NCBI RefSeq assembly: GCF_023051145.1
Contig: NZ_JALKFS010000005.1
Span: 930,001 to 994,000 of the forward strand
DNA length: 64,000 nt
Origin: Williamsia sp. DF01-3
Lineage (GTDB): Bacteria; Actinomycetota; Actinomycetes; Mycobacteriales; Mycobacteriaceae
Direction: 5' to 3'
In this document: positions 483 through 58,556 of the stretch, piece after piece
Position numbering within the stretch: position 1 is the stretch's first letter
Layout of the letters: each line of letters opens with the position of its first letter
Notes under the pieces: model-generated
The model's database searches: none
What the model was told of the DNA's origin: nothing
The model's input: the letters and a program-made list of their open reading frames with translations, nothing else
Translations under genes and position numbers: made by a program

Positions 483-2050
483 CGGTCACCTCCATCGGGC
501 TCGGCAACAGCCGGTGCGGGGTCACGCTCGTCGATGACGGTGAGGGTGTGGCCCACGGCTGGATCGATGACGTCGAGCACCGGTGCGGGATAGATGCCCA
601 GCGCCAGCAGCAGCGCCAGAAGGGGTGCCACCACCAGCATTTCGCGGCCGTGCAGATCGGTGAGGCGCTCGGTGCTCTTGTTCACGGGACCGGTCATCAC
701 CCGCTGGTACATCCACAGCACGTATATCGCGGCAAGCACCAGAGCCACCGAGGCGCAGACGGCCGCCACCGGGTAGCGGGTGAAAGTGCCGATCAGGACC
801 AGGAACTCGCTGACAAACGGACCCAGCCCGGGAAGCGACAGAGTCGCCAGTCCCGCCACCAGGAAAGTGCCGGCCAGCAGTGGTGCAACTTTCTGAACCC
901 CACCGAAGTCGGCGATGGCCCGTGATCCGCGCCGCGACACCAGGAACCCGGCAATCAACATCAGTGCCGCGGTGGCGATGCCGTGATTCACCATGTAGAG
1001 CGTGGAACCGGACTGTCCCTGACTGGTGAGTGCAAAGATACCCAGGATGATGAAGCCGAAGTGGGAGATCGACGTGTAGGCGATCAGACGCATCAGGTCG
1101 GTCTGGCCGATCGCGAGGATGGAGCCATAGATGATCCCGATGACCGCCAGTGTGACGACCAACGGGGTGAAATATCTTGTGGCATCGGGGAACAACTGCA
1201 CGCAGTACCGGAGCATCGCGAAGGTGCCCACCTTGTCCACCACGGCCATCATCAGCACGGCGCCGGCAGGGGTGGCCTGTACTGCCGCGTCCGGGAGCCA
1301 TGTGTGCAGCGGCCACAGCGGCGCCTTCACCGCAAAGGCGAACATGAAGCCCAGGAACAGGGCTTTGCCGACAGTAGGGTCGATGTCCAGCGAGCCGGAG
1401 GAGACGGCCGAGACGATCTCGCGGAAGTCGAACGTACCGCCGCCCTGGTCGGCGGTCACCACGTACAGGCCGATCACCGCGGCCAGCATGACAAGGCCCC
1501 CGGCGAGGTTGTACAGCAAGAACTTCACCGCCGCCCGCGACCGCTGGCCCGGGGCTTGTTCTGCCGCACCGAAACCCGCGATGAGGAAGTACATCGGGAT
1601 CAGCATGGCTTCGAAGAAGATGTAGAAGAGGAAGATGTCGAGCGCGGTGAACGACACCATCACCATGGCCTCGACCAGCAACATCAGTGCCATGTAGCGA
1701 TGGGTCGCACGCCGTCGGTCGGCGTCGGCGTCATTCCACCCGGCCAGGAGCAGAAGGGGGAGCAGCACGGCGGTCAACACCACGAGCGCCAGCGCGATGC
1801 CGTCGATACCGAGCTCGTAGCGGGTCCCGAAAGCGGGTATCCACGAGCGTGATTCCACGAACTGGTATTGGTCGCCACCGGGATCGAAGCGGACCGCCAA
1901 CACAAGCGCGAGGGCGAGCACCCCTACCGACGTTGCCAGCGCTACCCATTTGGCGACCACTCGTAGTCGAGGAGGCAGCATCAAGATGACAACCGCACCG
2001 ATCGCCGGTACCACCCACAACAGTGTCAGCCAGGGGATTGCGTTCACCAC
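479..2050 (-). CDS. nuoM: NADH-quinone oxidoreductase subunit M
   Basis: A 523-residue antiporter-like membrane subunit of complex I that takes part in proton translocation in the cytoplasmic membrane. The sequence is strongly hydrophobic with many membrane segments. It carries the Mrp/NuoM hallmark region ([19 protein letters not shown]) with its conserved lysine and histidine, and an upstream glutamate helix ([16 protein letters not shown]). Two GTG codons compete as the start, at 2050 and 2047. The second would give a four-base GTGA overlap with the nuoL stop, like most other junctions in the operon. Length is normal for the family and the frame is intact. Confidence 0.97.
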
Positions 2051-3938
2051 ACCCTCACCAACATCATCATCGCGACCAACAGGGCGCCTCCGGCGAACAT
2101 CGACAACGCGTACGAGCGGACGTATCCGGTCTGCACTTTGCGGAACAGCGTGGATGTGGCGCCGACGGCGCCGGCGAGTCCGTTCACCAGGCCGTCAACG
2201 CCTTTCAAGTCCGCCGACCCCAGTGCTCCGGTCAGCTTCTGGCCGGGTCGCATGAACGCCGCCTCGTTGAATGCGTCGCCGTAGAGGTCGCGGCGGGCTG
2301 CGACGGTGAGCGCGCGTCCCTTCGGTGCGACAACGGGGATGTCGCGTCGGGCGTACTGCCGCCAGGCCACGGCGAAGCCGGCCAGTACCACCGCGAGTGT
2401 GCCGGCGGTGATCACCCAGATGGGAACGGGCAGCTCGTCGTGGTGCTCACCGACCACCGGTTCGAGCCAGTGCTGCAGTGAACCTCCGAATGCCAAGAAC
2501 CCACCGGCAAAAACGGATCCGAGGGCCAGCAGGATCATCGGTCCGGTCATCAAGGCAGGCGACTCGTGTGGGTGCGCGGTCGCCCCGTGGGTGTCAGCCG
2601 GCCAGCGCTTCGTGCCGAAGAAGGTCATCAGCATCACGCGTGTCATGTAGAACGCGGTGATACCGGCGCCGAGCACAGTGACGACGCCCAGGATCACGCC
2701 TTTCACACCACCTGCTGCCCAGGCTGTTTCGATGATCTTGTCCTTGGAGAAGAAGCCTGCGAACGGCGGGATTCCGATGATGGCCAGATAGCCGAACCCA
2801 AAGGTGATGAAGGTGATCGGCATCAGCGCACGCAAGCCGCCGAAACGGCGCATGTCGGTCTCGTCGTTCATCGCATGCATCACCGACCCGGCGCCGAGGA
2901 ACAGACCGGCCTTGAAGAAGCCGTGTGTGATGAGATGCATGATGGCGAAGGCATATCCGGCCGGTCCCAGTCCGGCGGCGAGCACCATGTAACCGATCTG
3001 GCTCATGGTGGAGGCGGCGAGGGCCTTTTGATGTCGTCCTTGGCGCAGCCGATGATCGCGCCGAACAAGAGCGTGACCGCGCCGACGACCACCACCGCGA
3101 GTTGCGCTCCGGGCGCCAGGTCGAAGATCGGGCCCGACCGGGTGATGAGGTAGACGCCGGCGGTCACCATGGTCGCGGCGTGGATGAGCGCGGACACCGG
3201 CGTGGGGCCCTCCATGGCATCCCCGAGCCAGGATTGCAGCGGCACCTGCGCAGATTTGCCGCACGCGGCGAGCAGCAACATCAGGCCGAGGAAGGTCAGT
3301 ACTGTCTCACCGGCCTCGCCGGCTCCGGCGAACACCTCGGCGAAGCCCACCGACCCGAATGTCGCGAACATGATCATCATCCCGATGGCAAGACCCATGT
3401 CGCCGACGCGGTTGACCACAAAGGCCTTCTTCGCGGCTGCGGCCGCAGACGGACGCTGATGCCAGAAGCCGATCAGCAGGTAGGAGGCAAGTCCGACGCC
3501 CTCCCAGCCGAGGTAGAGGCCGAGATAGTTGTCGGCAAGGACCAGCAGAAGCATGGCTGCCAGAAAGAGGTTGAGGTAGGCGAAGAATCGCCGACGATCA
3601 GGGTCATCGGCCATGTAGCTGATCGAATAGATGTGGATGAGCGAGCCCACACCGGTGATCAGCAGGACAAAACACATCGACAACTGGTCAAGTTGCAGAC
3701 CGAAGTCCACACGTAGCTCACCGACGGGCACCCAGGTGAAGAGGTTCTCGTGTACGGCGCGTTCGTCGCCGGGGCGTCCGAGCATGTCGGTGAAGAGCAT
3801 CAACCCGTAGACGAAAGAGGCGAGCGCCATGAGGGAGCCGAGCAGATGACCCCACGGGTCGGTGCGCCTGCCTGCGAGCAGCAACACGATCGATCCGACG
3901 AGCGGGAGCGCCGGCAGGATCCAGACGGTTGTGTTCAT
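2044..3938 (-). pseudogene. nuoL: NADH-quinone oxidoreductase subunit L, reading frame broken by one missing base
   Basis: This encodes the large antiporter-like subunit of complex I, whose long lateral helix lies along the membrane arm. The N-terminal half (3938 down to about 3030) and the C-terminal half (about 3026 down to 2044) are both clear NuoL but lie in different frames. At 3026-3029 the coding strand reads ATC AAA AGG CCC. One more A would give ATC AAA AAG GCC and the expected [17 protein letters not shown]. With that base restored the product is 631 residues, normal for the family. As read, the first frame ends at 3003. All other operon subunits except nuoD are intact, so a homopolymer sequencing error is more likely than true loss. 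Ribosomal slippage is possible, but the site is not a canonical slippery heptamer. Confidence 0.93.
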
Positions 3939-3945
3939 CCGTGTC

Positions 3946-4245
3946 TCATAGCTTCAGCAGGTCGGCATCGTCGACCGAGGCCGAGTGGCGGGTCCGGAAG
4001 ATGGTCATGATGATCGCCAGTCCCACAACAACTTCGGTGGCCGCGACGACCATGGTGAAGAAGGCGATGACCTGACCGTCGAGATTGCCGTGCATCCGGG
4101 CGAAGGTGACGAAGGTCAGGTTGCAGGCGTTGAGCATCAGTTCCACGCACATGAACACGACCACGGCATTGCGGCGGATCAGTACGCCGGATGCCCCGAT
4201 CGTGAACAGCAGAGCCGAGACGTACAGGTAGTTCTCGGGATTCAT
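3946..4245 (-). CDS. nuoK: NADH-quinone oxidoreductase subunit K
   Basis: A 99-residue complex I membrane subunit with three membrane segments. It is homologous to MrpC and bears conserved membrane glutamates of the proton path (for example [13 protein letters not shown]). The ATG at 4245 overlaps the nuoJ stop by four bases (ATGA). Seven bases separate its stop from nuoL. Length and hydrophobicity match the family exactly. Confidence 0.97.
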
Positions 4246-5057
4246 GACCGCCGCCCACCGGCGCGATCCGACTTGGCCGACCCGAGGTTGGGGCCCGCCG
4301 GATCCCGGGGCTCGAGAACATCACTCACCGACAAATCGGAGAACGAGCCGTCGGGTAGCAGGGCCGGCATGTCGACGGCGTTGTGCCGGGCGTAGACACC
4401 GGGATTCGGCAGAGGGGTGCGGCGCCCGGCTTCGCGGAAGCGTCGGATGGAGAGCTCGCGCTGACTGTCCCGATCGCCGAGGCGTTCGCGGTGGGCCAGC
4501 ACCATCGCTCCGATGGTCGCGGTGATGAGCAACGCGCCGGTGAGCTCGAACGCCCACAGGTACCGGACGAAGATCAGCTCGGCGAGTCCTTCGACGTTGC
4601 CTCCGGTCGCGGCCCCCGGTGAACGGTCCGACACCACCGTCGTCGAGTCGTCGACTCCGGCAAAGGCTGTGACCGTGGCACTTCCGATCCCCGCGATCAG
4701 CAAGATCCCGAATCCGAGCCCGGCGCAGATGGCGCCGAGTCGTTGTCCACGTAGTGTCTCGACCAGTGAATCGGACGAGTCCACCCCGACCAGCATGAGA
4801 ACGAACAGGAACAGCATCATCACTGCGCCGGTGTAGACGACGATCTGGGCCACCCCAAGGAACAGTGCGCCCTGCGCGATGTAGAAGACCGCAACGATGA
4901 TCATCGTCATGGCCAGGAACACTGCCGAGTACACAGCCTTGGTTGCGCACACCACACCCAGCGCGCCCAGGACGGCGACAGTGCCGAGTACCCAGAACTG
5001 GACCGCCTCACCTGTGGACGTACGGGTGAGCGACTCAGCTGCTAATGCCGGGTTCAT
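4242..5057 (-). CDS. nuoJ: NADH-quinone oxidoreductase subunit J
   Basis: A 271-residue membrane subunit of complex I. I chose the ATG at 5057 ([20 protein letters not shown]) because it overlaps the nuoI stop by four bases. The frame stays open further upstream, but that would run into nuoI. Five membrane segments are visible. The family signature around [19 protein letters not shown] forms the glycine/tyrosine-rich helix implicated in coupling. The last 60 or so residues are a soluble, charged C-terminal tail, as in mycobacterial NuoJ. Confidence 0.96.
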
Positions 5058-10638: not shown

Positions 10639-10639
10639 C

Positions 10640-11509
10640 TCACACCTCCTTGCTGTCCGTGGTCGCAGTGTGATCGCGCGGTTGCGCATCCGGCGCCGGT
10701 GCCGGCTTGTCTGCGGCCGTCCGGGATGCTTCGGCTTCATCTGCCGCAGCGGTACGGCCCGCGTCGGGGGATGCATTGTTCGGAAGGTCTGGGCGACCGG
10801 TGGCGGGGGCCTGCATACCCCGGTCCCTGGCGATGAGGAGGCCGGCCAGGCTGGGATCACCGGCACTCCCGGCAGCATCCGAGCTACCAGGCCGGGCATC
10901 TGGGAAACCTGCCAGAATGCGGGCTGTTTCGCGAAAGGTGCACAGCGGCGCACCCCGTGTAGGGGTGACCTGTTCGCCTGAACGCAATGCGTCCACAAGC
11001 TCGCGGCCCGACTCCGGCGTCTGATTGTCGAAGAACTCCCAGTTCACCATCACCACGGGTGCGAAGTCGCACGCCGCATTGCACTCGAGATGTTCGAGCG
11101 TGATCGAGCCGTCCGCAGTGGTGCCTCCCGGCGACACCCCGAGATGGTCGATGAGGTCGGCAAGGATCGCATCACCGCCCATGACCGCGCACAAGGTGTT
11201 GGTGCAGACCCCGACCAGGAAATCCCCGGTAGGTTGCCGGCGGTACATCGAGTAGAACGTGGACACCGCGGTCACCTCCGCCGGCGTCAGCTCGAGAAGC
11301 CCTCCGCAGAAGGCGATCCCGGCCGGCGTGATGTATCCGTCCTCGCTCTGGACCAGGTGCAGCAGCGGCAGCAGTGCGGACCGCGCATCGGGATATCGGG
11401 CGATGATCTCGCGGGCATCCGGCTCGAGCCGGGCCACCACATCGGCGGGATAGCGCTGCTCCGGCGGCACCGGATCACCGAAGGTGAGGAAGACGGGCTC
11501 AGCAGTCAT
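10640..11509 (-). CDS. nuoE: NADH-quinone oxidoreductase subunit E (2Fe-2S)
   Basis: A 289-residue subunit with a thioredoxin-like fold holding cluster N1a. The four ligands are visible as CTNTLC and CNAAC. The ATG at 11509 overlaps the nuoD stop by four bases; an upstream extension of the frame is not needed. The first 190 or so residues cover the family domain. Beyond that is a tail of roughly 90 residues rich in Ala, Asp, Pro and Arg, likely disordered and of a kind common in mycobacterial-type NuoE. Confidence 0.97.
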
Positions 11510-12812
11510 CGGTCCACTCCGCCCATCACGGGGTCGATGCTCGCGACCGCAGCGATCACGTCCGAGATCATCCCGCCCTCGCACATGGCAGCCACCGCTT
11601 GCAGATTGGTGAAGGAGGGGTCGCGGAAGTGCACCCGGTACGGTCGGGTCCCGCCGTCACTGACCATGTGCACACCCAGCTCCCCCGGGGCGATTCGACC
11701 GACACGTACACCTGGCCCGGCGGCACCCGCATGCCCTCCGTGACCAGTTTGAAATGGTGGATGAGCCCCTCCATCGACGAGCCCATGATCTCGGCGATGT
11801 GTTCGCGTGAATTGCCCAACCCGTCGCTGCCCACAACAAGATCGGCAGGCCATGCGATCTTCTTGTCCTCCACCATGATCGGGCCGGGACGCAATCGGTC
11901 GAGGCATTGCTCGACGATCTTCAGGGACTCTTTCATCTCCTTGACACGAATCAGGTAACGACCGTAGGAATCGCACGCCGCATCGGTGATCACGTCGAAC
12001 TCATAGTTCTCGTAACCGCAGTACGGCGCAGACCGTCGGAGGTCGTGCGCCAGACCGGTCGCGCGGAGAATGGGGCCGGTGACCCCCAACGCCATACAGC
12101 CGGTGAGGTCCAGGTAGCCGATCCCCTGAGTGCGTGCCTTCCAGATGTAGTTCTCGCTCAACAGGTCTTCCATGTCCCGTAGTCGCCCGGGGAGCACCTC
12201 GAGAACTTCGCCGATCTTTTCCACCGCCCCGTCGGGCAGATCTTGAGCCAGACCACCCGGCCGGATGAAGGCGTGATTCATCCGCAATCCGGTGATCATC
12301 TCGAAGATGTCGAGGATCAGTTCGCGCTCACGAAAGCCGAACAGCATGGCGGTCACCGCGCCGAGTTCCATGCCGCCGGTCGCCAGCGCGACCAGATGCG
12401 AGGAGATGCGATTCAACTCCATCAGCAACACCCGGATCACGTTCACCCGTTCCGGTATCTGATCGGTGATGTCGAGGAGCTTCTCCACGCCCAGGCAGTA
12501 GGCGGTTTCGTTGAAGAACGGCGACAGGTAGTCCATCCGGGTCACGAACGTGACACCTTGCGTCCAGTTGCGGAACTCGAGATTCTTCTCGATGCCGGTG
12601 TGAAGGTAGCCGATGCCGCAGCGGGCCTCCGTGACCGTTTCCCCTTCGAGTACCAGGATCAACCGCAGCACACCGTGAGTCGAGGGATGCTGCGGCCCCA
12701 TGTTCACCACGATGCGTTCCTCGCCGGACTCAGCGGCCGAACTCACGATGTGGTCCCAGTCCTGGCCTGTGGCAGTGAACAGGTTGCTGCCCGTGTCGAT
12801 GTTGTCGCTCAT
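11506..12812 (-). pseudogene. nuoD: NADH-quinone oxidoreductase subunit D, reading frame broken by one missing base
   Basis: The 49-kDa-type subunit that forms the quinone pocket with NuoB. The frame from the ATG at 12812 is textbook NuoD through [12 protein letters not shown] and then goes out of frame. The remaining residues, starting [19 protein letters not shown] and ending in VMGGVDR, sit in the next frame down to 11506. The break is at the G5 run of the coding strand (C5 at 11682-11686 on the plus strand). Six Gs would restore CGG GGG GAG CTG and a 435-residue protein. As read, the shifted frame stops at 11568. A homopolymer miscall is the simplest explanation. A one-base TGATG overlap joins it to nuoC. 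Confidence 0.93.
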
Positions 12813-14725: not shown

Positions 14726-15141
14726 TCAGAGGGAGGGACGCAGGACTTCCACAACGGCCTGGGTGAGGGTGAACGGATCAAGAGGCCGAGGGACAACCGC
14801 CTCGGCCTGCGACCAGTTGGCAAGCCAACTGTCCTCGGCACGGCCGGTCAGAACGACCACGGGAGGGCAGCGGTCCACCTCGTCTTTGAGTTGTTTGGCG
14901 ATACCCATGCCGCCCGCGGGAGACGCCTCACCATCGAGGATGACCAGATCGATGCCGCCCTCGTCCATCCTGGCTTGCACGGCGGGCTGAGTTGCCAACT
15001 CGACATAGGTGAACGGGGCGAGTCCGGAAGGGGGTGGTCGCCCAGGGCCTCGATGACCTGCCGGCGGGTGGCAGCGTCGCTGCTGTAGACCAGAACCCGC
15101 AGCACATCAAGGCGATTGGAACGCGACGGTGCCTCTGTCAC
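14726..15141 (-). pseudogene. Response-regulator receiver-like protein (Rv3143 type), frame broken by one missing base
   Basis: A stand-alone receiver-like protein without an output domain, located immediately upstream of nuoA, as Rv3143 is in M. tuberculosis (from memory). The N-terminal part (GTG at 15141, LRVLVYSSDAATRRQVIEAL) and the C-terminal part (MDEGGIDLVILDGEASPAGG, then CPPVVVLTGRAEDSWLANW) lie in different frames. The break is near 15022, where GAC TCG would become GAC CTC GCC with one more C; a missing base in the G5 run at 15030-15034 is an alternative. Restored, it is about 138 residues. The acidic pocket and a central LVILDGEA in place of the usual phospho-acceptor context suggest an atypical receiver. 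A role in nuo regulation is only inferred from position. Confidence 0.75.
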
Positions 15142-15209: not shown

Positions 15210-17336
15210 TCACGTCGCCATCGGGCCCCGAGGTGGTGACTCCTTCGGCCCGGCGGGCACGTCGTTCGCCGGCCACCAGAACGCCTTGCGCTGCAACACC
15301 GAGAGAGCAGGCACCAGCGTGGGTGCCATCACAAGCGATGCGAGCAGGACACCGATCGCGACTCCCGCGCCGAGCTCCTTCAGGTTGTCGAGTCCGGTGA
15401 GTGTGAGCGAGGCGAAGGTCAGCGCCAAGATGGTGCCCGCCGCCGCGACCGTCGGACCGTCGTTGGCGATCGCTATCCGCGCCGCGTCCGGAGGTGAATG
15501 GCCGTCGCGGAACTCCTCTCGCAACCGCTCGGCGAGCAGGATGTTGTAGTCGGTGCCGATTGCGACCACGAACAGATAGAGGACGATCGGCGTCGAGAAG
15601 TCGATACCTGCGAGGCCGGCGGCGTGCAGGAAGACGATGACAAGAGCGCCGAGTGTGGCGGCGAAAGTGAGCCCGACACAGATGAGCAGGTTGATCGGTG
15701 CGAGAACCGACATCAGGAGCAGTCCGAGGATCACACCGACGATCACCACGGCCACCGGGAACACCAGACCGGTGTCGGAACCGAGCTGTTTGCGCACGTC
15801 GACCAAGGTCGATGTCTGTCCGCCGACGTAGACCTCGGCCCCGGGGATCGAATCGTGTGCTGTCTGCCGCACAGGGCCTTCCACCGTGTCGAGAGCGTCG
15901 GTTGTGTACGGACTCTGGGTCAAGATGACGTTGATCAGGGCGGCCGTGCCGTCCTGACTGATCCTGGGTGGCTGCACCGACGCCACGCCGGGGACCTTCG
16001 CAAGGTCTGCCTCGAGCGTGGCCAACTGGTCCTGTGGGACCGGGCCAGGTGTCTTGACGTACACCTGGGTGGGGCTCAGGGCCCCTGGGGGCAATGAGTC
16101 GGCAAGCGTGTCGAACGCCTGCTGAGACGGTGTGTCCGAGGGCATCTCGGCCAGGGTGTCGTAGGTGGCCTTGTATCCGGTGCTGAAAACCGCCAGCACG
16201 ATCAGGCCCGCCGCCACCGTGCCGACCACGATGATCGGTCGGCCGCCCACGAATCGGCCGATCCCGGCGAATGGCGAGCGTCTGGGGTCGTGGCCCGGTC
16301 CGAGGGGCCAGAAGAGGTGGCGATGCAGGATGGTGAAAATGGCGGGGATGAGCGTCAGCGCGGTCATCAACATGACTGCCACGGCGATGATCAGACCTGG
16401 TGCCAGCGAACTGAGTGAGCCCAGCTTGGCGAGGAACAGCGCGGAGAAGGCCCCGATCACCGTCAGTGCCGAGGACGCGACCACCCGGCCGACAACTCGA
16501 GTCGAGAGAATGATCGCCGGATTGTGAGAGTCGCCCTGCCGCAACTCCTCCCGGTAACGGAAGAGCAGGAAGACGATGTAGTCGGTGCCGACACCGAAGA
16601 GCACGACCACCAGGATCGCGTCGAGGGTGGTGCTCACCTCGAAGTCGAAAAGGCTTGCCGCCATGGCTGTCACACCACGAACAGCGATGAAGACCACACC
16701 GATCACGACGATGGGCAGGATCGCGATGATGGGACTGCGGAACACCAGCCCGAGTGTGAGCAGGATGATCACCACCGTCGCAATGGTGATGACCTGCTCG
16801 GCATCAGCGTAGGCAGCGTTGCTGTCGACAGATATCGCGGCGTTGCCGGTGAGACCCGCTGTGAGCCCGGTGCCTTCGAGGTCCTTGGTGGCGTCGTCGC
16901 GCACATCGGCCACCGCATCGTTCACCGTCTCGTCACCGGGCTGCCCGGCGAAGGTCACCTGGAGTGCGGCCACCTTGCCGTCCGGCGAGAACGATTGAGG
17001 ACTGCCGACGACACTCGTGACGCCGGGAATCTTGGCGTCCTGCAACGTTGTTGCCAAACCCAGGGCGGTCTGTTGATCATCCGGTGTCAGCGGGGCACCG
17101 TCCGGACGAGATACCACCAGGCTGCCGGTGGCCCCGGCCGTGGCCGGAAAGTACTCGTCACCCAACTCCTGAGCGTGGACCGATTCGAACGACGATGGCA
17201 GGAAGTCTTGCTGATTGTTGCTCGTGCGGTCCTCGAGGTTGGGCGAGAACAGGATGATCAACACTGCGATGACCACCCAACCGGCGATGAACCGCCACGG
17301 ATGAGCGACAACTGTGCGGGCGATGACAGCGAACAT
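15210..17336 (-). CDS. MmpL/RND-family membrane exporter
   Basis: A 708-residue transporter with two MMPL domains, each made of one N-terminal membrane helix, a periplasmic domain and a five-helix bundle. The proton-relay motifs GVGTDYIVFLLFRYREE and AIGTDYNILLAERLREE mark helices 4 and 10. I preferred the ATG at 17336 (MFAVIARTVVAHPWRFIAGW) to an upstream ATG because the first membrane helix follows directly. Members of this family export lipids or siderophores, or act in drug efflux; the substrate here is unknown. It is transcribed divergently from the crotonase gene across a promoter region with CGCAA/TTGCG repeats. Confidence 0.93.
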   Translation of the reverse strand: MFAVIARTVVAHPWRFIAGWVVIAVLIILFSPNLEDRTSNNQQDFLPSSFESVHAQELGDEYFPATAGATGSLVVSRPDGAPLTPDDQQTALGLATTLQDAKIPGVTSVVGSPQSFSPDGKVAALQVTFAGQPGDETVNDAVADVRDDATKDLEGTGLTAGLTGNAAISVDSNAAYADAEQVITIATVVIILLTLGLVFRSPIIAILPIVVIGVVFIAVRGVTAMAASLFDFEVSTTLDAILVVVLFGVGTDYIVFLLFRYREELRQGDSHNPAIILSTRVVGRVVASSALTVIGAFSALFLAKLGSLSSLAPGLIIAVAVMLMTALTLIPAIFTILHRHLFWPLGPGHDPRRSPFAGIGRFVGGRPIIVVGTVAAGLIVLAVFSTGYKATYDTLAEMPSDTPSQQAFDTLADSLPPGALSPTQVYVKTPGPVPQDQLATLEADLAKVPGVASVQPPRISQDGTAALINVILTQSPYTTDALDTVEGPVRQTAHDSIPGAEVYVGGQTSTLVDVRKQLGSDTGLVFPVAVVIVGVILGLLLMSVLAPINLLICVGLTFAATLGALVIVFLHAAGLAGIDFSTPIVLYLFVVAIGTDYNILLAERLREEFRDGHSPPDAARIAIANDGPTVAAAGTILALTFASLTLTGLDNLKELGAGVAIGVLLASLVMAPTLVPALSVLQRKAFWWPANDVPAGPKESPPRGPMAT

Positions 17337-17480
17337 GGGTACTTCCGTCTGAGAGTCAGGGCACGTACATGCTCGCTCCGCGTCTCGCAATCTTGCGCGA
17401 GTGCGGTCGCAAGATGTCGCCCGGGTCGAAGCGGGAAAAGCATATCGCCTGGCGGCGGGCGAAGGGGGAGAATCCTTTGC
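17337..17480. promoter_or_regulatory. Divergent promoter region with CGCAA/TTGCG operator-like repeats
   Basis: A 144-base region between the divergent MmpL and crotonase genes. It holds a perfect inverted repeat, ATCTTGCG-N10-CGCAAGAT, at 17390-17415. Another CGCAA half-site at 17386-17390 pairs with TTGCG at 17393-17397 in a tight palindrome. Three half-sites of the same sequence in 30 bases look like a repressor-binding cluster, perhaps TetR-type. No regulator gene is adjacent. Confidence 0.5.
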
Positions 17481-18308
17481 ATGACCAACCCCAACGATGT
17501 GACCGGGTCACATGAAGTCGTCGTCGCCCATACCGAGGACAGCATCACCACCTGGACGCTCAACATGCCCGAAGCGCGCAACCCCATCTCAGGCGACGAG
17601 GTCGTGTCCCGGATGGTGGACCTGGCCGCGGCCGCCAACGCAGACCGGAACGTACGAGTGGTGATCCTCACCGGAGCGGGGTCGGCGTTCTCGGCCGGTG
17701 GCAATGTCAAGGACATGGTGGACCGGGTCGGCATGTTCGGCGGCAGTCAGGCCGACATCCAGCACGGGTACACCAGCGGGATACAGCGGCTGACGCGGGC
17801 GATCTACGGTTGCGAGGCGCCGATCATCGCAGCGGTGAACGGACCTGCAGTGGGCGCCGGATGTGATCTGGCGTTGATGGCAGACATGCGAATCGCCTCG
17901 GAGAACGCCTTTTTCGCGGAGAGCTTTGTGAAGCTGGGCCTGATTCCAGGCGATGGTGGAGCATGGCTGCTGCCGCGTGCGGTGGGTGCGGCGCGCGCCG
18001 CGGAGATGGCCTTCACCGGAGACCGCGTGGATGCGGCGACCGCGCTGGAGTGGGGACTCGTGTCGCGGGTGGTGGCCGCCGACGCCCTCATGGACACCGC
18101 CCGACAGCTGGCCGCTCGCGTGGCCTCGAACCCACCGAATGCATTGCGTCTCACGAAGAAGCTGTTACGCGAAGCGGATACGCAACACCTCGGCGGCATC
18201 CTGGAGTTGTCGGCCGCCATGCAGGCGATCTCGCACGGCACGGCTGATCATCGCGAAGCGCTGTCCGCCTTTGTCGAACGTAGGCCCGGGCAGTTCACGG
18301 GAGACTGA
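17481..18308 (+). CDS. Crotonase / enoyl-CoA hydratase family protein
   Basis: A 275-residue crotonase-fold enzyme acting on a CoA thioester. The oxyanion-hole segments are visible as FSAGGNVKDM and NGPAVGAGCDLALMADMRIA. Aligning by eye to classical hydratase, the second catalytic Glu is kept (AAEMAFTGDR) but the first (usually in the QPE motif) is replaced: here the segment reads AESFVKLGLIPGDGG. It may therefore be an isomerase or another crotonase activity. The ATG at 17481 follows a GGGGGAG box. It faces fatty-acid-oxidation genes on the other strand and shares a terminator hairpin with them. Confidence 0.9.
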   Translation: MTNPNDVTGSHEVVVAHTEDSITTWTLNMPEARNPISGDEVVSRMVDLAAAANADRNVRVVILTGAGSAFSAGGNVKDMVDRVGMFGGSQADIQHGYTSGIQRLTRAIYGCEAPIIAAVNGPAVGAGCDLALMADMRIASENAFFAESFVKLGLIPGDGGAWLLPRAVGAARAAEMAFTGDRVDAATALEWGLVSRVVAADALMDTARQLAARVASNPPNALRLTKKLLREADTQHLGGILELSAAMQAISHGTADHREALSAFVERRPGQFTGD

Positions 18309-18385: not shown

Positions 18386-19551
18386 TCAGAGCAATTCGAG
18401 GATGGTCGCGTTGGCCATGCCGCCGCCCTCGCACATCGACTGCAGTCCGTACTGGATGCCCTGCGCCCGCATCCGGTGGATCATCGTGGTCATCAGTCGT
18501 GCACCAGACCCGCCCAGCGGGTGGCCGAGCGCCATGGCTCCGCCGTCCGGATTGAGCAGCTTGTAGTCGGCGCCCGTGCTCTTCTGCCAGCCGAGGGACA
18601 CCGACGCGAACGCCTCGTTGATCTCGAAGGTGCCGATCTGGTCGATGGACATTCCGGCGCGCTGCAACACCTTCGCGGTGGCCGGGATCGGGCCTTTCAG
18701 CATCGTGATCGGGTCGGCGCCCACCACCGCCACCGAATGCACGCGGGCGATGGGGGTCCATCCGTACACCGATGCAAGTTCGCTGGTGGTGACCAGCAGC
18801 GCGGCGGCGCCGTCGGAGATCTGAGAGGCGTTGCCGGCGGAGATCACCCCGTCTTCCTTGAACGGTGTCTTGAGTCCCGCCAGCTTCTCGAGTGTGCCGC
18901 CTCGGCGAACCCCCTCGTCGGTGGTGACCACGGTTGTGGTGCCGTCTTCGGCCGTGACGGTGATGGGTGCGATCTGATCGACGAAACGTCCTTCGTCGAT
19001 GGCATTGCCCGCCCTTTCGTGGGAGTCGAGGGCGTGCTGGTCCAGATCTGTTCTGCTCAGCCGAATTCCTCGGCGATCATCTCCGCGCCGATACCCTGAT
19101 TGAACACGAAGTTGTCGTAACGCTTGCGCACCATCGGCCCAAAGGGTTCGCCGTGTTCGCCACTGGCACGGGCCGCACCCATCACCACACGCGACATCGA
19201 CTCCACACCGCCGGCAACGGCCACGTCATAGTGGCCCGCGACAACTCCGGCCGCAGCCAGATGTACTGCCTGCTGCGAAGATCCGCACTGGCGGTCCACG
19301 GTGAGCCCAGGCACCGACTCGGGCCAGCCGGCAGCCAGTACCGAATACCGGCCGATGCAGCCGGCCTGTTCACCGACCTGGGAAACGCATCCCCAGATCA
19401 CGTCGTCCACCCGTTCGGGATCGAGGCCGTTACGGGCGGCGAGCGCCTGCAACACCTGGGCGGACAAATCGACCGGGTGAATACCGGACAGGCCGCCGTT
19501 ACGTTTGCCGACTGGACTTCGAACGGCATCGACGATCACTGCATCACGCAT
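18386..19551 (-). pseudogene. Acetyl-CoA acetyltransferase (thiolase), frame broken by one missing base
   Basis: Thiolase family, cleaving or forming 3-ketoacyl-CoA. The N-terminal frame from the ATG at 19551 contains the acyl-accepting cysteine in DRQCGSSQQAVH and ends at GAEMIAEEFG plus a stop at 19057. The C-terminal frame resumes immediately (SRTDLDQHALDSHERAGNAI) and holds FEINEAFASVSLGW, GHPLGGSGAR and the second catalytic Cys in MCEGGGMANATIL. One extra C at 19060-19061 (GGC CTG AGC in place of GGC TGA GC) would restore a 388-residue enzyme. Either a base-call error or a recent inactivation. It lies about 45 bases downstream of the acyl-CoA dehydrogenase gene, in the same direction, consistent with a beta-oxidation unit. 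Confidence 0.92.
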
Positions 19552-21349: not shown

Positions 21350-21653
21350 TCTCGAGCTCCTTTTTCGATGCGGCATTTTGTGACGACTACCACACGTGTT
21401 CGGAGCCGAAACAAAGCTGGATTGCTTGGGTGTGAGAAAAGTCGAAAAAGGTGGTTCGGGGCTCGGGATTCTCGTCGTTGCGCGGTCTGTAGGGCGAGCG
21501 TTTGACGGTTAGCTGCGGCGCTGACGGCCTGCTCGCGAATCTCGCCGATGCTCGGTCTGCAGACCGAGCGTTTGCCGGTTGGCGGAGCGGCCCGAATGTT
21601 CGCCGACGCGCAGCCGTCAGTCACGCGACCCCATCTGCGACAGGACAGCCAGA
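21350..21653. other. 304-base intergenic region with a perfect 18-bp palindrome and imperfect direct repeats
   Basis: I see no gene here. It contains the promoter of the secreted protein and a perfect palindrome, CTCGGTCTGCAGACCGAG, at 21551-21568. The stretches near 21482-21513 and 21553-21583 are imperfect direct repeats of about 31 bases (CGGTCTG...GAGCGTTTG.CGGTT), offset by about 71 bases. The region looks like a degenerate intergenic repeat or a regulatory element. Confidence 0.5.
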
Positions 21654-25430: not shown

Positions 25431-26304
25431 CTAGGGCCCAGCTATGGTGCTCAACTCGGCATAGTCAGCGTCGGACAGCTGCACGCCGGCGCCGGCAGCG
25501 TTGTCGCGCAGGTGGGTGACCGATGAGGTGCCAGGGATCAGCAGGATGTTCGGTGAACGCCGGAGGAGCCACGCCAGAGCAACCGACATCGGTGTCGCGT
25601 CGAGCCGAGTCGACACCGAGCTCAGCACCGCCGACTGCAACGGGCTGAAGCCGCCGAGGGGAAAGAACGGTACGTAGGCGATGCCATCGGTGTTCAACGA
25701 GTCGATCAGCTCGTCGTCATGTCGATTGGCCACGTTGTAGAAGTTCTGGACGCAGACGATCGGCGCGAGCGCGCGCGCCTCGGCGACCTGGTCAGGTGTC
25801 ACATTGCTGAGCCCGAGGTGCCGGATCAGCCCGTTCTGCTGCAACTCCGCCAGGGTCGTAAAGGCCTCTTCGATGGATCCCGACTCCGGGCCCGCGGGAC
25901 TTCCCACCCGCAGATTGACCACGTCGACCACGTCGAGTCCGAGATTCTCGAGATTGGAATGGACGCTGTCGCGCAGCTGCTGAGGCGATCGAGCCGGCGG
26001 CCAGCCGCCCTGGGCGTCACGATGCGCCGACCTTCGTGATGACGCGGAGCGAGTCTGGGTACGGGTGAAGTGCCTGTCTGATGAGCTGATTGGTGATGTA
26101 GGGCCCGTACGCGTCGCTGGTGTCGATGTGGGTGATGCCCAGCTCCACCACCTCGCGCAGGACGCTGACTGCAGCGCTGCGGTCGGCCGGAGGTCCCATC
26201 ACGCCGGGGCCTGCCAGTTGCATTGCGCCGTAGCCGAAACGGGTGAGCTCGAGCTGATCGGTGAGCGGAAAGACCCCGCCGGGAAGTTGTGTTGCGTTTG
26301 TCAT
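25431..26304 (-). pseudogene. Aldo-keto reductase, frame broken by a small indel
   Basis: NADPH-dependent aldo-keto reductase family. The N-terminal part from the ATG at 26304 has the cofactor strand FGYGAMQLAG, the catalytic segment THIDTSDAYGPYI (Asp and Tyr of the tetrad) and VITKVGAS, the catalytic Lys region, then a stop at 26017. The C-terminal part (GLSNVTPDQVAEARAL, QNFYNVANRHDD, LLIPGTSSVTHLRDN) is one frame away. Two bases are missing (TCG CGT GAC in place of TCG TGAC) or one T is extra near 26018-26020. Restored, the protein would be about 291 residues. It is divergent from an MmyB-type regulator, a frequent pairing in actinobacteria. Confidence 0.9.
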
Positions 26305-26406
26305 GTCCCCACCGTGCGAGACGCGACGAGACCGTGCCAGTGCCCCGGTCTTCCTGGGAGTGACAGGGACAGTCACGCCGAGCGCAAGTCTGAGTACGGT
26401 CGACGT
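26305..26406. promoter_or_regulatory. Divergent promoter region between aldo-keto reductase and MmyB-type regulator
   Basis: A 102-base region holding both promoters. An inverted repeat, GTGAC-N7-GTCAC, at 26360-26376 lies 30 bases upstream of the regulator start and is a candidate operator for the MmyB-type protein. Confidence 0.45.
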
Positions 26407-27270
26407 ATGGGCGGCAACGGACAACTCGGCGACTACCTTCGTGCCCGACGGGAGCTCGTTCGGCCGGAGGACGTCGGGCTGCCGGTGGTGGGGCAGCGCC
26501 GCGTGTCGGGGTTACGCCGCGAGGAGGTGGCGATGCTCGCCGGCATCAGCTCCGACTACTACCTCCGGCTGGAGCAAGGGCGCGACCACAACCCGTCGGT
26601 GCAGGTGCTCGAATCACTTGGCCGCGTACTGCAACTCGACGAGACGGCTACGTCCTATCTCATCGGACTCGCTGCGCCCCAGACACGCAAACGCACGCGA
26701 CGTCACCGCCGCGAGACGGTGCCCGAGGGCATCCGCCAACTACTTGCCACCATCGGAATGCCTGCCTTCGTGGAGAGTCGACACTTCGACGTGCTCGCCG
26801 CCAACGACCTTGCCCGCGCCGTGTCACCTAATCTGCGTGTCGGTCAGAATCGCTTGAAAGCCTTGTTCCTCGACCCCGGCGAACAAGCACTCTGCCCGAA
26901 TCATGAATTGGCCATGAGCCACCTCGTCGCGGGCTTCCGACAGTCGGTCGGCCCCGACGTCGATGATCCGCGTGTCGTGCAGATAGTGGGGGAGCTGTCC
27001 CTGGCGAGCGAGCAGTTCCGTCGACTGTGGGCTCGGCACGACGTGCAGGTCCGGGTGGGCACTCAGACCCCGATGTACCACCCGCAGGTCGGCGAGCTGA
27101 TGCTCTACAAAGACCGGCTTGCCGTCGATGCATCCGAAGGCCTTGTCTTGGTCATCTATCACGCGGCGCCCGGAACCGACAGCGCAGACAAGCTCGCTCT
27201 GCTCGCATCGCTGGCCGCGCCGTCGGCGCCGGAGTTGTCGGCGCGTGCAGTGGACGTGACGGACGGCTGA
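26407..27270 (+). CDS. MmyB-type helix-turn-helix transcriptional regulator
   Basis: A 287-residue regulator with an N-terminal Xre-like helix-turn-helix (VSGLRREEVAMLAGISSDYY, then LEQGRDHNPSVQVLESLGRV). A C-terminal PAS-like MmyB ligand-binding domain (about residues 100-270) contains GTQTPMYHPQVGELMLYKDR. I set the start at the ATG at 26407 (MGGNGQLGDYLRARRELVRP). Proteins of this type usually control the divergently transcribed oxidoreductase, here the aldo-keto reductase. The ligand is unknown. Confidence 0.93.
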   Translation: MGGNGQLGDYLRARRELVRPEDVGLPVVGQRRVSGLRREEVAMLAGISSDYYLRLEQGRDHNPSVQVLESLGRVLQLDETATSYLIGLAAPQTRKRTRRHRRETVPEGIRQLLATIGMPAFVESRHFDVLAANDLARAVSPNLRVGQNRLKALFLDPGEQALCPNHELAMSHLVAGFRQSVGPDVDDPRVVQIVGELSLASEQFRRLWARHDVQVRVGTQTPMYHPQVGELMLYKDRLAVDASEGLVLVIYHAAPGTDSADKLALLASLAAPSAPELSARAVDVTDG

Positions 27271-37712: not shown

Positions 37713-39056
37713 GTGACAGCGGATCAAGCGCGCGCTGAGACAACGGACGACACGAGTACACAGCAACGGTTTCCGAGTCACCCTCTTCTGCTGATCGCGT
37801 TCGTGGTGGGCGCGGCCATTGCGCTCCTCGTGCAAGTCCGGTTCATTCCTCTGGACGCCCCCATCTTCGGGTTGTTCAAGAACCAGGTCGACCTCGACGT
37901 GTACCGCGCCGGGGCTCAGCACCTGTTGCACGGCCGGCAGCTGTATGACTTGCCGATGCTCCGGAACGGCCTGCTGTACACCTACACCCCGTTCTCGACC
38001 ATCGTCTTCCAACCTTTCGGCTGGATGAGCGCCGAGATGGCCGTGGACGTCTGGAGTGGCCTCATCTTCGTCACCCTGTACTGGGTGATCCTGGCCTCGT
38101 TCCGGAGTCTGGGCTACGAGATGAGCTGGTCGCTGGCCATCGTGGCCGCGGCGATGGTCTGTGCCGTCACCTTGATGGAGCCGGTCCGCACCACGATCTG
38201 GTACGGGCAGATCAACGTCTTCTTGATGGCGATCGTCTTGTGGGACCTGCTTCGGCCAGATGGCAGTCGGCTCAAGGGCATCGGTGTCGGTGTCGCGGCG
38301 GGCATCAAACTGACCCCCGCATTCTTTGTCGTCTACCTCGCCATCACGAGACGGTGGCGCGCGGTGCTCGTGGTGGTCGCGACCTTCGGCGCCACGATCC
38401 TGATCGGCTTTCCCGCGACGCCCCGGCAGTCGTGGAACTACTGGACCGACCGGGTGGTGAACTCCGACCGCGTCGGCCCCACAGACGCTCCCAGCAATCA
38501 GTCGATCAAGGGCGCCCTGGCCACGGTGTTCGACACGACCACGCCCAGCAATCTGCTGTGGCTTGTCTGTTCTGCATTTGCGGTGGTCCTGGGGATCGGA
38601 GCGGCCTGGCTGGCGCACCGCTCAGGCCAAGAGCTCCTTGCCCTGTGTCTGACCGGGATGACCACTGCCGCGGTGTCACCGTTCAGCTGGGGCCATCACT
38701 GGGTGTGGTTTGTACCCCTGCTCGTGTTCGCGGTGCACCTGCCCATCGCGGCGTGGCGCGCCGGCTCACGACCACTCGCCGGATTGTTGTGCCTCGCGCC
38801 GCCCGCGCTCTTCACCGCCGTGTTCATCTGGCGCAACTACCTCCCCGGCGGCGCCCTGGGCTTCAAGCCCTTCTACGGCACCGGCATGTTCATGACGCCG
38901 TTCCCGGATTGGCTCCGATGGTTCTCTGCCGAGCCCTACCTGTGGGTGTTCGGCGTGACCGCGGTGTTGTGCATCGCCGTCTGGGGCCCTGGCGAAGTGC
39001 GGGCCAGGGATTTTGCACGTCGCTCGAACGGTACGGCAGGTTCGCGGGCGGCCTGA
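37713..39056 (+). CDS. GT87-family mannosyltransferase, tandem paralogue
   Basis: A 447-residue membrane protein closely similar in layout to its upstream neighbour. It shares LFKNQVDLDVYRAGAQHLL, MEPVRTTIWYGQINVFL, the GVAAGIKLTPAFFV helix and SPFSWGHHWVWFVPLLV. The shared anchors and tandem position point to gene duplication. GTG at 37713 is preceded by GGTGAGGAG. It likely acts on the same lipoglycan pathway (PIM, LM or LAM type); the acceptor is unknown. An 8-bp inverted repeat lies downstream at 39143-39163. Confidence 0.88.
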   Translation: MTADQARAETTDDTSTQQRFPSHPLLLIAFVVGAAIALLVQVRFIPLDAPIFGLFKNQVDLDVYRAGAQHLLHGRQLYDLPMLRNGLLYTYTPFSTIVFQPFGWMSAEMAVDVWSGLIFVTLYWVILASFRSLGYEMSWSLAIVAAAMVCAVTLMEPVRTTIWYGQINVFLMAIVLWDLLRPDGSRLKGIGVGVAAGIKLTPAFFVVYLAITRRWRAVLVVVATFGATILIGFPATPRQSWNYWTDRVVNSDRVGPTDAPSNQSIKGALATVFDTTTPSNLLWLVCSAFAVVLGIGAAWLAHRSGQELLALCLTGMTTAAVSPFSWGHHWVWFVPLLVFAVHLPIAAWRAGSRPLAGLLCLAPPALFTAVFIWRNYLPGGALGFKPFYGTGMFMTPFPDWLRWFSAEPYLWVFGVTAVLCIAVWGPGEVRARDFARRSNGTAGSRAA

Positions 39057-39343
39057 ACACGCCTGGATTGTTTCGTCTCCTCTCGAGATCGGGTGCATCG
39101 GAGCGGTCGGCATGCTGCGGACAAGTGTTGTGACGTAGCCATATTCGGGCTCGACGCCCGAATGGACGGCTCACAAATGCAGTCGAGAAGTCACTTCCAT
39201 CCGCCGAGGTCCGATTGCCGTGAAATCGAGCGCGGCGGGCAGCCTGCTGTTGGAAGTCCGATCCTGGCCGCGCGGGCCGTGCGGCGCGCGACCGACGTCC
39301 ACCGGGGGCCACGAACGTCGGACCGCGCCGGTAGGCTGCCACC
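39057..39343. other. 287-base intergenic region upstream of dnaX
   Basis: No gene is visible. A perfect inverted repeat, ATTCGGGC-N5-GCCCGAAT, at 39143-39163 may end the mannosyltransferase transcript or serve as an operator. The remainder should hold the dnaX promoter; I could not assign boxes. Confidence 0.45.
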
Positions 39344-52846: not shown

Positions 52847-52916
52847 GGGGACAATTCTCGGGGCAACCAAAGGTTCAGTTCAATCGAATTAAAATGCATC
52901 GCTCGTGTAGTTGAAC

Positions 52917-54155: not shown

Positions 54156-54604
54156 TCTGCTGACGATATCGAATGTGCGCGCACGCGGACCCATTCCAAG
54201 GTCAAAGTTGTGCCCGATGCTTCCTTCAAAAATGTCGGACGGTCACACAGGGCCCGGATGAGGGGAAGACCTCGACCACGGAATCGATTGCCAGCCGGCG
54301 GGCGCCACTGCCCACGGTCGGAGATGGTTACCGCCAGATGGTCGCTCGACGGCGCGTGACTGGCCTCGATCGTCATGGTTCCGGGTTCGGCCTCGCCTGC
54401 GTAGGCGTGTTCTGCAGCGTTGGCCAGTGCCTCGTACGACGCGAGAATGATCGCGTACATGTGCTCGTCCGAGATCGCGAAGTTGTCGCTGAGCCACTCG
54501 CCGAACTCGTGACGCAGGTGACCGGCTCCTGCCGCCGTCGCCGGCACGTCGGTGCGGCTGAACGCGGGGCCGTCGTACAAGTCTGCTACCGGTTGGAGGG
54601 ACAT
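54152..54604 (-). CDS. Anti-sigma-factor-type ATP-binding protein (RsbW-like)
   Basis: A 150-residue GHKL ATPase domain without histidine-kinase parts. The N box is ASYEALANAAEHAYAG, with G-box-like VTISDRGQWRPP and GRGLPLIRALCD. Proteins of this kind inhibit sigma factors or phosphorylate anti-anti-sigma partners. No sigma factor gene is adjacent. The downstream glycosidase start overlaps its stop, so the two are coupled. ATG at 54604. Confidence 0.85.
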   Translation of the reverse strand: MSLQPVADLYDGPAFSRTDVPATAAGAGHLRHEFGEWLSDNFAISDEHMYAIILASYEALANAAEHAYAGEAEPGTMTIEASHAPSSDHLAVTISDRGQWRPPAGNRFRGRGLPLIRALCDRPTFLKEASGTTLTLEWVRVRAHSISSAE

Positions 54605-54839
54605 CTCATTCGCCTACCCATCCGCAGTCGAAGTATTCGTAACTGCTGCGAGTACCCGGACTTTTGTGGCCTTCGTCACTGTCCAAGAGTTCACGGAGCA
54701 GCTGCGAAGAGTCTTTCGATAGCCGATCCGGCCGCTGAGTCGTTGGTACAGTCAGGTGATTTTTCGGTGGTGCGGGCGCAGAGCGCCGCTACACATCACG
54801 GCTGTCGGGGGGCGGCCAGTACGTCGATGCAGTAGTGAC

Positions 54840-55967: not shown

Positions 55968-55980
55968 TCGCGGGGATCAG
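55964..55980. terminator. Hairpin spanning both convergent stop codons
   Basis: CTGATC at 55964-55969 pairs perfectly with GATCAG at 55975-55980 (5-base loop). The two arms contain the stop codons of the diguanylate cyclase and the epimerase. A weak candidate for a shared terminator. Confidence 0.4.
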
Positions 55981-56900
55981 TGGGGATCGGCCAATAGGTC
56001 GCGCGCCATCTGCTGGTATCCCTCGCGAACGCTCGGGTAACGGGGTTGCCAGTTCGCCGCATCCCGGAAGCGCGCGTTGGACGCCCGGATCGACCGGGTC
56101 ATCGATGTCAGTCGATCCCCCAGGAGTAGGCCGAGGCGACCGGGACCCTTGATCCAGGCAGCGGCGCCCGTTGCGTCGGCACACGCCTGCGCGTGTTGGT
56201 CCTTGGTGAGAGGCTCGTCGTCGACAACGTTGTAGGTGCCGCCCGGACATGCCAGTGCGGCAGCAACGGCATCGCCCGCGTCAGCGACGTGTATCGACGA
56301 CATGAAACTGCCCCGGGGGCCCGGTACAAAGCCGATGTGGTTTCGGGCGAGGGTCACGATCTGCTCACTGTGAGCTGCGCCGATGCCGTAGAACAGGCCG
56401 AAGCGCAGAACAACCGACCGGCCTCCGTCAGCAGCGAATCGGGCGGCGTTCGCCTCGGCGGCGTGGTTCCCCCTGGTGATCGGGTAGTGATCAACAGGAT
56501 GGTCCTCGTCGATCCATTCGCTGCCGCCGTCCCGATAGAGCATGGCCACCGATTCCTGGATCAACTGCGGCACATCGGCGTCGAGGCAAGCCCGGACCAC
56601 TGTTGCCGATCCCTCGGTGCGCACCCGTTCACACTCACGCCAGGCCGACTGGCGGACGAAGGAAGCGGTCGACGGTAACGCGGTGGCGAGATTGACCACG
56701 GCGTCGTGCCCGGCGATGGCAGCGGTCAGTCCCGGTCTGTCGAACAGTGACACCATCATCGGCCGGGCACCCTGGTCGGCGAGAGCCCGGGCCTTCTCCG
56801 AGCTGCGTGCCATCGCAGTGACGTCGTGCCCGGCTGCGACCATCGAGGGCACCGCGCGAGTGCCCACGGCACCCGTGCCCCCGGTTACGAAGACCCGCAT
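55977..56900 (-). CDS. NAD(P)-dependent epimerase/dehydratase family protein
   Basis: A 307-residue extended short-chain dehydrogenase. The Rossmann motif MRVFVTGGTGAVGTRAVPSM has the TGGTGxxG pattern, and AGHDAVVNLATALP follows. The active-site region reads LIQESVAMLYRDGG, so the usual YxxxK is not obvious; it may be an atypical member. The ATG at 56900 follows GGGGAGGTGG. The substrate is unknown. Confidence 0.85.
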   Translation of the reverse strand: MRVFVTGGTGAVGTRAVPSMVAAGHDVTAMARSSEKARALADQGARPMMVSLFDRPGLTAAIAGHDAVVNLATALPSTASFVRQSAWRECERVRTEGSATVVRACLDADVPQLIQESVAMLYRDGGSEWIDEDHPVDHYPITRGNHAAEANAARFAADGGRSVVLRFGLFYGIGAAHSEQIVTLARNHIGFVPGPRGSFMSSIHVADAGDAVAAALACPGGTYNVVDDEPLTKDQHAQACADATGAAAWIKGPGRLGLLLGDRLTSMTRSIRASNARFRDAANWQPRYPSVREGYQQMARDLLADPH

Positions 56901-57006
56901 GACCACCTCCCCGCCGAAGTCGAATCTGGCCATCACCCAACATAGTTCACCAATGATGAAGTTCCCGGGAAATTGAGCGACCGGCTCACCCCGGCGGGCG
57001 ACACCC

Positions 57007-57213
57007 TCAGTCGTCGATCCATTCCAGTAGATCCCCGGGCTGGCATTCGAGTACTCGGCACATCGCTTCCAGGGTGCTGAATCGAACTGCCTTGGCACGG
57101 CCGTTCTTCAGCACCGCGACATTCGCGGTAGTGAGACCCACACGCTCGGCGAACTCGCCGACGCTCATCTTCCGCTTTGCCAACTCCACGTCGATACGCA
57201 CGACGATCGACAT
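57007..57213 (-). CDS. Small Xre-type helix-turn-helix regulator (YozG-like)
   Basis: A 68-residue single-domain regulator. The helix-turn-helix is MSVGEFAERVGLTTANVAVLKNGRA, with the family end LECQPGDLLEWIDD. The ATG at 57213 overlaps the stop of the upstream DUF2975 gene by one base. Such pairs of small regulator and four-helix membrane protein are widespread, and the regulator probably controls the pair. Confidence 0.92.
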   Translation of the reverse strand: MSIVVRIDVELAKRKMSVGEFAERVGLTTANVAVLKNGRAKAVRFSTLEAMCRVLECQPGDLLEWIDD

Positions 57214-57692
57214 CAGATCACCGCGTCCATGTCCGACCGCAGCGTGGTGGCCTGGCGCAGCAGTGCGCGCATCACGACCATCAACAGGCCCAAGACGGCC
57301 CCGCCCATCAGCATCAGGAAGAGGAGAAGCGGCAAGCCTGGATCGTTCGCATTGAATCCGACGAAGAGGAACACGCCGAGAAGTGTGAGCCAACCGGCGC
57401 CGATCGCCCAGACGATTGCCGTGACCCAGACGAGTGAGGCGTGGGTGAAGATTCGGTCGCTGCGCACCAGAGTGAGCAACTTCCAGGTGCAGATGATGAC
57501 CACCTGGGCGCAGAGCACCCAGAACACGGTGACGGCTGTCGCCGGCCAACGCAGGTAGGCCTGGTCGGGTGCCTCCTCGGCCATGTGCGCGAATTGCCCT
57601 GGCAGGGACATGGTTTGGAACAAGACCAGTATTGCGAAGAGCGATACGAGGAAGACTCGCAGTGCGGTGACGACCCAGCGTTCATTGAACAT
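57213..57692 (-). CDS. DUF2975-family membrane protein
   Basis: A 159-residue membrane protein with four predicted helices (VTALRVFLVSLFAILVLFQ first). A central RSDRIFTHASLVWVTAI motif is typical of DUF2975. It is transcribed with the following helix-turn-helix gene. The promoter upstream places the transcript start at or next to the ATG, so translation may be leaderless. Function unknown. Confidence 0.87.
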   Translation of the reverse strand: MFNERWVVTALRVFLVSLFAILVLFQTMSLPGQFAHMAEEAPDQAYLRWPATAVTVFWVLCAQVVIICTWKLLTLVRSDRIFTHASLVWVTAIVWAIGAGWLTLLGVFLFVGFNANDPGLPLLLFLMLMGGAVLGLLMVVMRALLRQATTLRSDMDAVI

Positions 57693-57698
57693 GCATCG

Positions 57699-57732
57699 AC
57701 TATCACGGCAAATCTATCGAATGTCAATAGAT
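57699..57732 (-). promoter_or_regulatory. Promoter and operator of the DUF2975/HTH pair
   Basis: On the minus strand a perfect TTGACA (57722-57727) is followed by a 17-base spacer and GATAGT (57699-57704), six bases before the ATG. This predicts a leaderless or nearly leaderless mRNA. An inverted repeat TCTAT-N10-ATAGA spans 57713-57732 over the -35 and is a candidate site for the small HTH regulator. Confidence 0.65.
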
Positions 57733-57792
57733 CGCTTGGAGCAACGAACACCGGGTCTGTCCGGTGTCGGCACTACGGGTGAGCTGTGAGAC

Positions 57793-58556
57793 TCACCGAG
57801 GTGCGGGGAATAGTGTTGAAGCCAGGGTGATTTCCCCGTCGAGTTCGTTCACGAACTCCCCGGGACACCCACCGCTCAACGCGCTCGAGACGGCAGCGAT
57901 CACGCGGTCGTCTGCGGGCTCGACCGCGTGCTCGAGGTGCGGAATCGGGGCGAGCCTGCACTGGCCGCCATCGAGCCGCCCATCGGCGAGCTCCTCGTTG
58001 CTTCTGATCGAGTAGTACTCGACGTCTCCGGGTGTGTCGTCGCCGTTGTTGAGTTCGGCGACGAACGGGGTCACCGGGCACCCATCGAAGCCGAATCCGG
58101 GCAATTGGACGCAGCCGCCGGGCGAGCCGTATTGGGGGTGCCGATCGCGATGTAGTCGTCGATGCGCTCGGAGCCGCCCAGCGCTTTCAGGTAATGGCGC
58201 GACGACAAACCCCCGTAGCTGTGCGCCACCAGCGACAGGCTCTCCACTTCGACTCCGGCCGTGGCACTTTCGATCGATTCCTGGATGGCCCGCGAGTCCG
58301 CGTAGAGGTCGAGGCCCTTCACGTCGACCGTGTCGACGGTGTACCCCTCGGCAGCCAACTCGTCCGCCATGTCTCCGAAGATGTCCATGCTCAAGGTTCC
58401 CGGGGCCGGTTGCTGGCCTGGTACCAGCAGCACGATGCGTTGAGGCTGACCCGGCGCCGACCCGGCCGATGCGGTGGCGGAGCCGATGAGTGTGGCCACC
58501 GAAGCAACCGCGAGCGCGCCCATGAGTGTTGTGAGGGCACCCTTAGTGGAAGTCAT
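57793..58556 (-). pseudogene. Secreted lipase/esterase (alpha/beta hydrolase), frame broken by one missing base
   Basis: An extracellular lipase-like protein: a signal peptide (MTSTKGALTTLMGALAVASV, cleavage near TASAG), nucleophile Ser in LVAHSYGGLSSRHY, an acid residue near NNGDDTPGDVEYYS, and His in IPHLEHAVEPADD. The first frame reaches DDYIAIGTP and is then lost. The second begins with PGFGFDGCPVTPFVAEL in the next frame. The break is at the G5 run 58134-58138 (C5 on the coding strand); one more base gives IGTPQYGSPGGCVQLPGFG and a 254-residue product. Likely a homopolymer miscall. Two cysteines in the C-terminal half may form a disulfide. Confidence 0.88.

Follow-up and report, generated by a model that had tools for sequence, protein, structure and literature searches.

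The window, i.e. the whole stretch of 64,000 nucleotides that was analysed, corresponds to positions 930001-994000 of contig C5 in the assembly of Williamsia sp. DF01-3 (G000:C5:930001-994000; the assembly comprises 5,592,969 bases, about 5.59 Mb, in 6 contigs). A literature search for a paper describing this Williamsia genome found none. Seven genes of the window, all on the reverse strand, were interrupted by a change of the reading frame:

2044..3938, reverse strand, nuoL (NADH-quinone oxidoreductase subunit L); one base lost at 3027, run of four T in the window
11506..12812, reverse strand, nuoD; one base lost at 11682, run of five C in the window
14729..15141 (extent approximate), reverse strand, response regulator of the Rv3143 type adjacent to the nuo genes; one base lost in the G run 15030-15034 (site 15029)
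15210..17511, reverse strand, MMPL-family transporter; one base lost at 15231, near the 3' end
18386..19551, reverse strand, acetyl-CoA C-acyltransferase (thiolase); one base lost at 19060
25431..26424, reverse strand, aldo-keto reductase type oxidoreductase; two bases lost at 26023 (one dinucleotide unit)
57793..58556, reverse strand, lipase-like alpha/beta hydrolase (weak family assignment); one base lost at 58134, run of five G in the window

The NuoG of the window is 98% identical to that of Williamsia muralis BULT 1.1 and 99% identical to those of the genomes G006 and G008, in line with the genus Williamsia. The close relatives used for comparison, G005, G006 and G008, aligned almost end to end with the window, with 94-97% identity in most blocks and 93% in one. 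At 39022-39312 of the window, this genome and G005 are without about 7.2 kb carried by G006 and G008 (in G006, L113:1836-9027); the G006 insert encodes a GntR/UTRA regulator, a DAO-type oxidoreductase, a solute-binding protein and an ABC ATPase and looks like an ordinary catabolic or transport island. Indel differences to all three relatives were dense at 54600-54760 and 21450-21640, which are apparently intergenic.

The breaks were examined by tblastn of the relatives' proteins against the window and by alignment to the relatives. The six broken genes proposed in the initial annotation (nuoL, nuoD, a receiver-like gene, a thiolase, an aldo-keto reductase and a lipase) were each recovered as two pieces in different frames meeting at or near the assigned place, and the alignments gave five one-base losses (3027, 11682, 15029, 19060 and 58134) and one two-base loss. 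The pieces were stop-free and 85-100% identical to the relative's protein, in agreement with the proposal that both halves are well conserved. The pieces covered residues 1-305 and 304-631 of NuoL, 1-377 and 377-435 of NuoD, 1-37 and 34-137 of the response regulator, 1-164 and 165-388 of the thiolase, 1-134 and 134-331 of the aldo-keto reductase, and 1-153 and 141-254 of the lipase-like protein. On the relative's genes, the family models NF005141 (NuoL), TIGR01962 (NuoD), TIGR01930 (thiolase) and NF007695 (aldo-keto reductase) were matched; the match of the response regulator to NF050825 was 190.1 bits, below the 200-bit cut-off, and all Pfam matches of the lipase-like protein were below cut-off (best E 0.0048).

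A comparison with close relatives had been suggested as a check, and each break was absent from every close relative aligning there: three relatives at five of the sites and two for the lipase-like gene. Wherever the genes were found in G005, G006 and G008, they were in a single open frame. For the lipase-like gene, tblastn gave no match in G005, and its intactness is therefore based on two relatives.

Some details of the individual breaks had to be revised. The aldo-keto reductase break, described earlier as a two-base loss or a one-base gain at 26018, was determined to be the loss of a GC dinucleotide repeat unit at 26023. Four of the six breaks (3027, 11682, 15029 and 58134), not three, touch a run of four or five identical bases in the window. 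Two sites had been read as CC shortened to C: the one placed at 15022 is a loss in the G run 15030-15034, which has five G in the window and six in all three relatives, and the one at 19060 is an A-rich step that is one base short. At 3027, 11682 and 58134, the window's run is broken up by a different letter in the relatives. The count of six was too low, as the window has at least seven breaks, the missed one being that of the MMPL transporter (PF03176; TIGR00833 below cut-off, both on the relative's gene). This loss at 15231 was seen against 3/3 relatives and is located about 20 codons before the end of the gene in the relatives. At 17356, a seemingly additional base was considered as a further break of the MMPL coding sequence and rejected. 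It lies about 50 codons into the reference ORF and upstream of the MMPL domain, in a part where the position of the start is uncertain and the frame of G008 also changes; it probably precedes the true start.

For the rate of such events, the DF01-3 genome was compared with G005 and G006 over 505,966 and 503,710 alignment columns with 95.0% and 96.1% identity, respectively; 496,125 bases (about 496 kb) of DF01-3 were aligned to both. Isolated indels of at most 30 bases with a flank identity of at least 85% were counted, and those of a length divisible by three were set aside (9, 7 and 4). Gene calls were ORF-based with a codon-GC rule and uncurated. DF01-3 had 68 private frame-changing indels, of which 40 were in genes of both references, 8 in genes of one only and 20 outside predicted genes. 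The corresponding numbers were 10, 3 and 30 (n = 43) for G005 and 2, 0 and 15 (n = 17) for G006. With the indels in genes of one reference dropped, the in-gene excess of DF01-3 gave Fisher p values of 8.3e-5 against G005 and 6.6e-5 against G006. The density was about one in-gene break per 12 kb in the part examined. Linear extrapolation from 40 events in 496 kb gives about 450 in-gene events genome-wide, a few of them probably real, which bears out the earlier warning that other features may be affected.

A first possibility is that the breaks are real and recent pseudogenes of a strain that lost these functions independently. Nuo is dispensable in some mycolic-acid bacteria, the breaks are strain-specific, and G005 also has a few mid-gene breaks. 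Against this stand the control rates: when only sites over 30 codons away from either end of the gene were counted in the same alignments, the private frame-changing indels were 26 in DF01-3, 5 in G005 and 1 in G006. The two controls lead to an expectation of about 0.1-0.7 real breaks for 64 kb. One of the seven window breaks could accordingly be real, and, as the control genomes carry some breaks themselves, this may apply to any single site. The set as a whole is very poorly explained by gene loss.

A protein-level check was made on the first sample. Frameshifts were detected in 15 of 215 found genes of DF01-3 compared with 4/206 in G006 and 5/211 in G005 (pooled Fisher p 0.004); 41 of the 256 references were not found, partly as they are located outside the sampled DF01-3 DNA. 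The scan misses some breaks, the thiolase and the lipase-like gene being unflagged. In-frame stops numbered 2 in DF01-3, 4 in G006 and 3 in G005, and the two of DF01-3 and two of those of G005 were in the same two reference ORFs. Next to the 15 frameshifts no clearly private stop was seen in the 215 found genes, of which 5 were partial matches that may or may not contain one. Among 80 named loci examined, 75 held enough of NuoL and all 75 had it in one frame; NuoD was in one frame in 74/75, a conservation that also disfavours gene loss. The NuoD exception, Mycolicibacterium litorale F4 (L086, 6679-7949), has a frame change at about residue 86, which may be an error of this type in a different genome.

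The in-gene indels of DF01-3 were mostly deletions, 34 against 6 insertions (34/40; binomial p 8e-6), whereas the ratios were 7:3 in G005 and 1:1 in G006. The dependence on homopolymers was determined with runs conserved in both relatives, and substituted runs were dropped. Conserved runs of at least six bases were shortened in 6/24 cases in DF01-3 and in 0/17 and 1/19 in the controls, and those of at least five in 10/273 compared with 0/262 and 2/264. By run length, the shortened fractions in DF01-3 were 10/42,967 for two, 2/7,142 for three, 0/1,318 for four, 4/249 for five and 6/24 for six or seven bases. DF01-3 exceeds G005 and G006 at runs of five and above; at runs of two, three and four, with 10, 2 and 0 shortened, DF01-3 was not clearly worse than G005 (5, 5 and 1; G006 1, 1 and 0). 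One-base losses touched a run of at least four in 25/51 cases in DF01-3, 2/22 in G005 and 2/13 in G006, compared with 4% of random sites. Long runs were also rarer in DF01-3 than in the relatives, with ratios of runs of six or more to runs of five of 52:628 vs 71:575 (p 0.037) and 50:631 vs 72:597 (p 0.029). Of the conserved runs of at least five bases, 7/241 G/C runs and 3/32 A/T runs were shortened, i.e. G/C was more frequent by count and A/T per run.

Homopolymers are only a part of the story, since 22/51 one-base losses of DF01-3 have no adjoining run longer than two and the losses described below for rpoC, pks13 and the FAS-I gene lie outside long runs. Private substitutions in the first sample were slightly denser within 10 bases of the losses (3.28% vs 1.96% background), but this clustering was weak and also seen in G006 (2.23% vs 1.42%); substitution errors are therefore not claimed.

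Four of the six initially listed breaks are on runs of four to five bases, where the genes could in principle be expressed despite real breaks, by programmed frameshifting or by transcriptional slippage. The affected genes are unrelated, however, the shift site is not conserved, and the relatives keep a single frame at the corresponding positions. Among the 4- to 6-mers near the losses, none was enriched except homopolymer-containing words, which gives neither a shift signal nor a methylation-like motif. Such recoding is regarded as exceedingly improbable.

Six long genes were searched by family elsewhere in the genome: RpoB, IleS, CarB and DnaE were in a single frame, and Pks13 and RpoC were split. 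Four intact genes of six are compatible with about one break per 12 kb, without proving it. RpoC was divided into frames of 637 and 779 codons, whereas a single frame of 1302-1327 codons was found in 12/12 other genomes; compared with three relatives, the rpoC DNA had a net loss of one base, together with a few gaps that cancel each other out. Pks13 was whole in all five same-genus relatives searched. A FAS-I-type synthase was present as frames of 2250 and 870 codons in comparison with 3076-3079 codons in five relatives. Over 11 kb, its DNA differs from the G005 copy, which carries the Fas1 domain, by just one gap, a loss of one base. Pks13 and FAS-I are essential in mycobacteria, and absence of RpoC is incompatible with life. 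Only one RmlA copy scored over cut-off, and it has lost one base in a run of six G at codon 9, where an alternative start is possible; RmlA is reported to be essential in mycobacteria (PMC8870461). The breaks are thus insensitive to the importance of the gene, with RpoC, Pks13, the FAS-I type synthase and RmlA among those hit, and they are not confined to genes that can be lost, as gene loss would predict.

Three further observations were made on long genes and their surroundings. A second DnaE-type gene (G000:C5:2360403-2363029), perhaps DnaE2, had matches in two open frames of 191 and 1051 codons, possibly of the same error type. Very long synthase frames at G000:C5:4245556, 4552879 and 5012488 had 2922, 4524 and 5742 codons compared with 4632, 5985 and 7053 in apparently matching frames of G005, the pairing being based only on matched query range and score. 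A C-rich tandem repeat is located 3' of rpoC (L230, reverse complement about 4440-4490); its units are six bases long here and mostly five bases long in G008.

The bias toward deletions and long homopolymers would also be expected of a natural indel-mutator strain living with many real small deletions. In such a strain, selection would spare RpoC, and also Pks13, FAS-I and RmlA if they are needed in Williamsia as in mycobacteria. The private in-gene substitutions looked ordinary, with 71.1% at third codon positions compared with 72.5% and 73.8% (first sample). The NucS mismatch repair of Actinobacteria is described to leave indels uncorrected, and its loss to raise transitions, not indels (PMC8228993); the first statement would suit a mutator and the second speaks against it. 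A mutator origin is hardly credible. The same low probability is given to a variant in which the breaks are real and polymerase or ribosome slippage at short runs allows the isolate to live with frameshifts by the hundreds, rpoC included.

RpoC is indispensable to any cell, and the set is therefore best explained by deletion errors that remained in an under-polished assembly. The six breaks, together with at least one other in the window, are almost certainly residual base-deletion errors of the assembly and no biological feature. The initial annotation had preferred systematic sequencing or assembly error to six gene losses, and this preference is supported by the privacy of the breaks, their in-gene density, the deletion bias with partial run-length dependence, and the breaks in essential genes. 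As for the technical cause, we infer that a basecaller or consensus step under-counted homopolymers of about five bases and longer and also dropped single bases or a dinucleotide unit elsewhere, and that the assembly was polished too little, or not at all, with accurate reads. Where the relatives' run is interrupted, real substitutions of the strain may have lengthened the run, and the under-count would then look like a loss of the interrupting base.

The main contig of 5,250,048 bases and the small number of contigs give only a hint of a long-read platform. The profile matches published long-read error profiles in the main points, the long-read platform being assumed here. Long-read-only assemblies are described by Homopolish (PMC8011154) and Kastor (PMC12007338) with homopolymer-linked indels, prominent deletions, mostly in genes, and many false pseudogenes per genome. 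For a nanopore assembly, Kastor (PMC12007338) reports that the indels were mostly false deletions, with runs of four to five bases as the most frequent preceding context, and that 67% of the indels were inside genes; the value here was 40/60, the eight indels in genes of one reference being left out. In contrast to Kastor (PMC12007338), where errors were commonest at A/T runs, A/T prevailed here per run and G/C by count. As in the assembly-made pseudogenes of public genomes (PMC11017572), the breaks are single changes and frameshifts exceed stops; that work is a survey, whereas the argument here is drawn from essential genes and the relatives of one assembly.

Claims of gene loss, pseudogenes or pathway completeness made from this assembly are unsafe unless checked against reads. 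Within the collection searched, this assembly represents its species, so that comparative work could inherit false absences of NuoL, NuoD, RpoC, Pks13 or RmlA.
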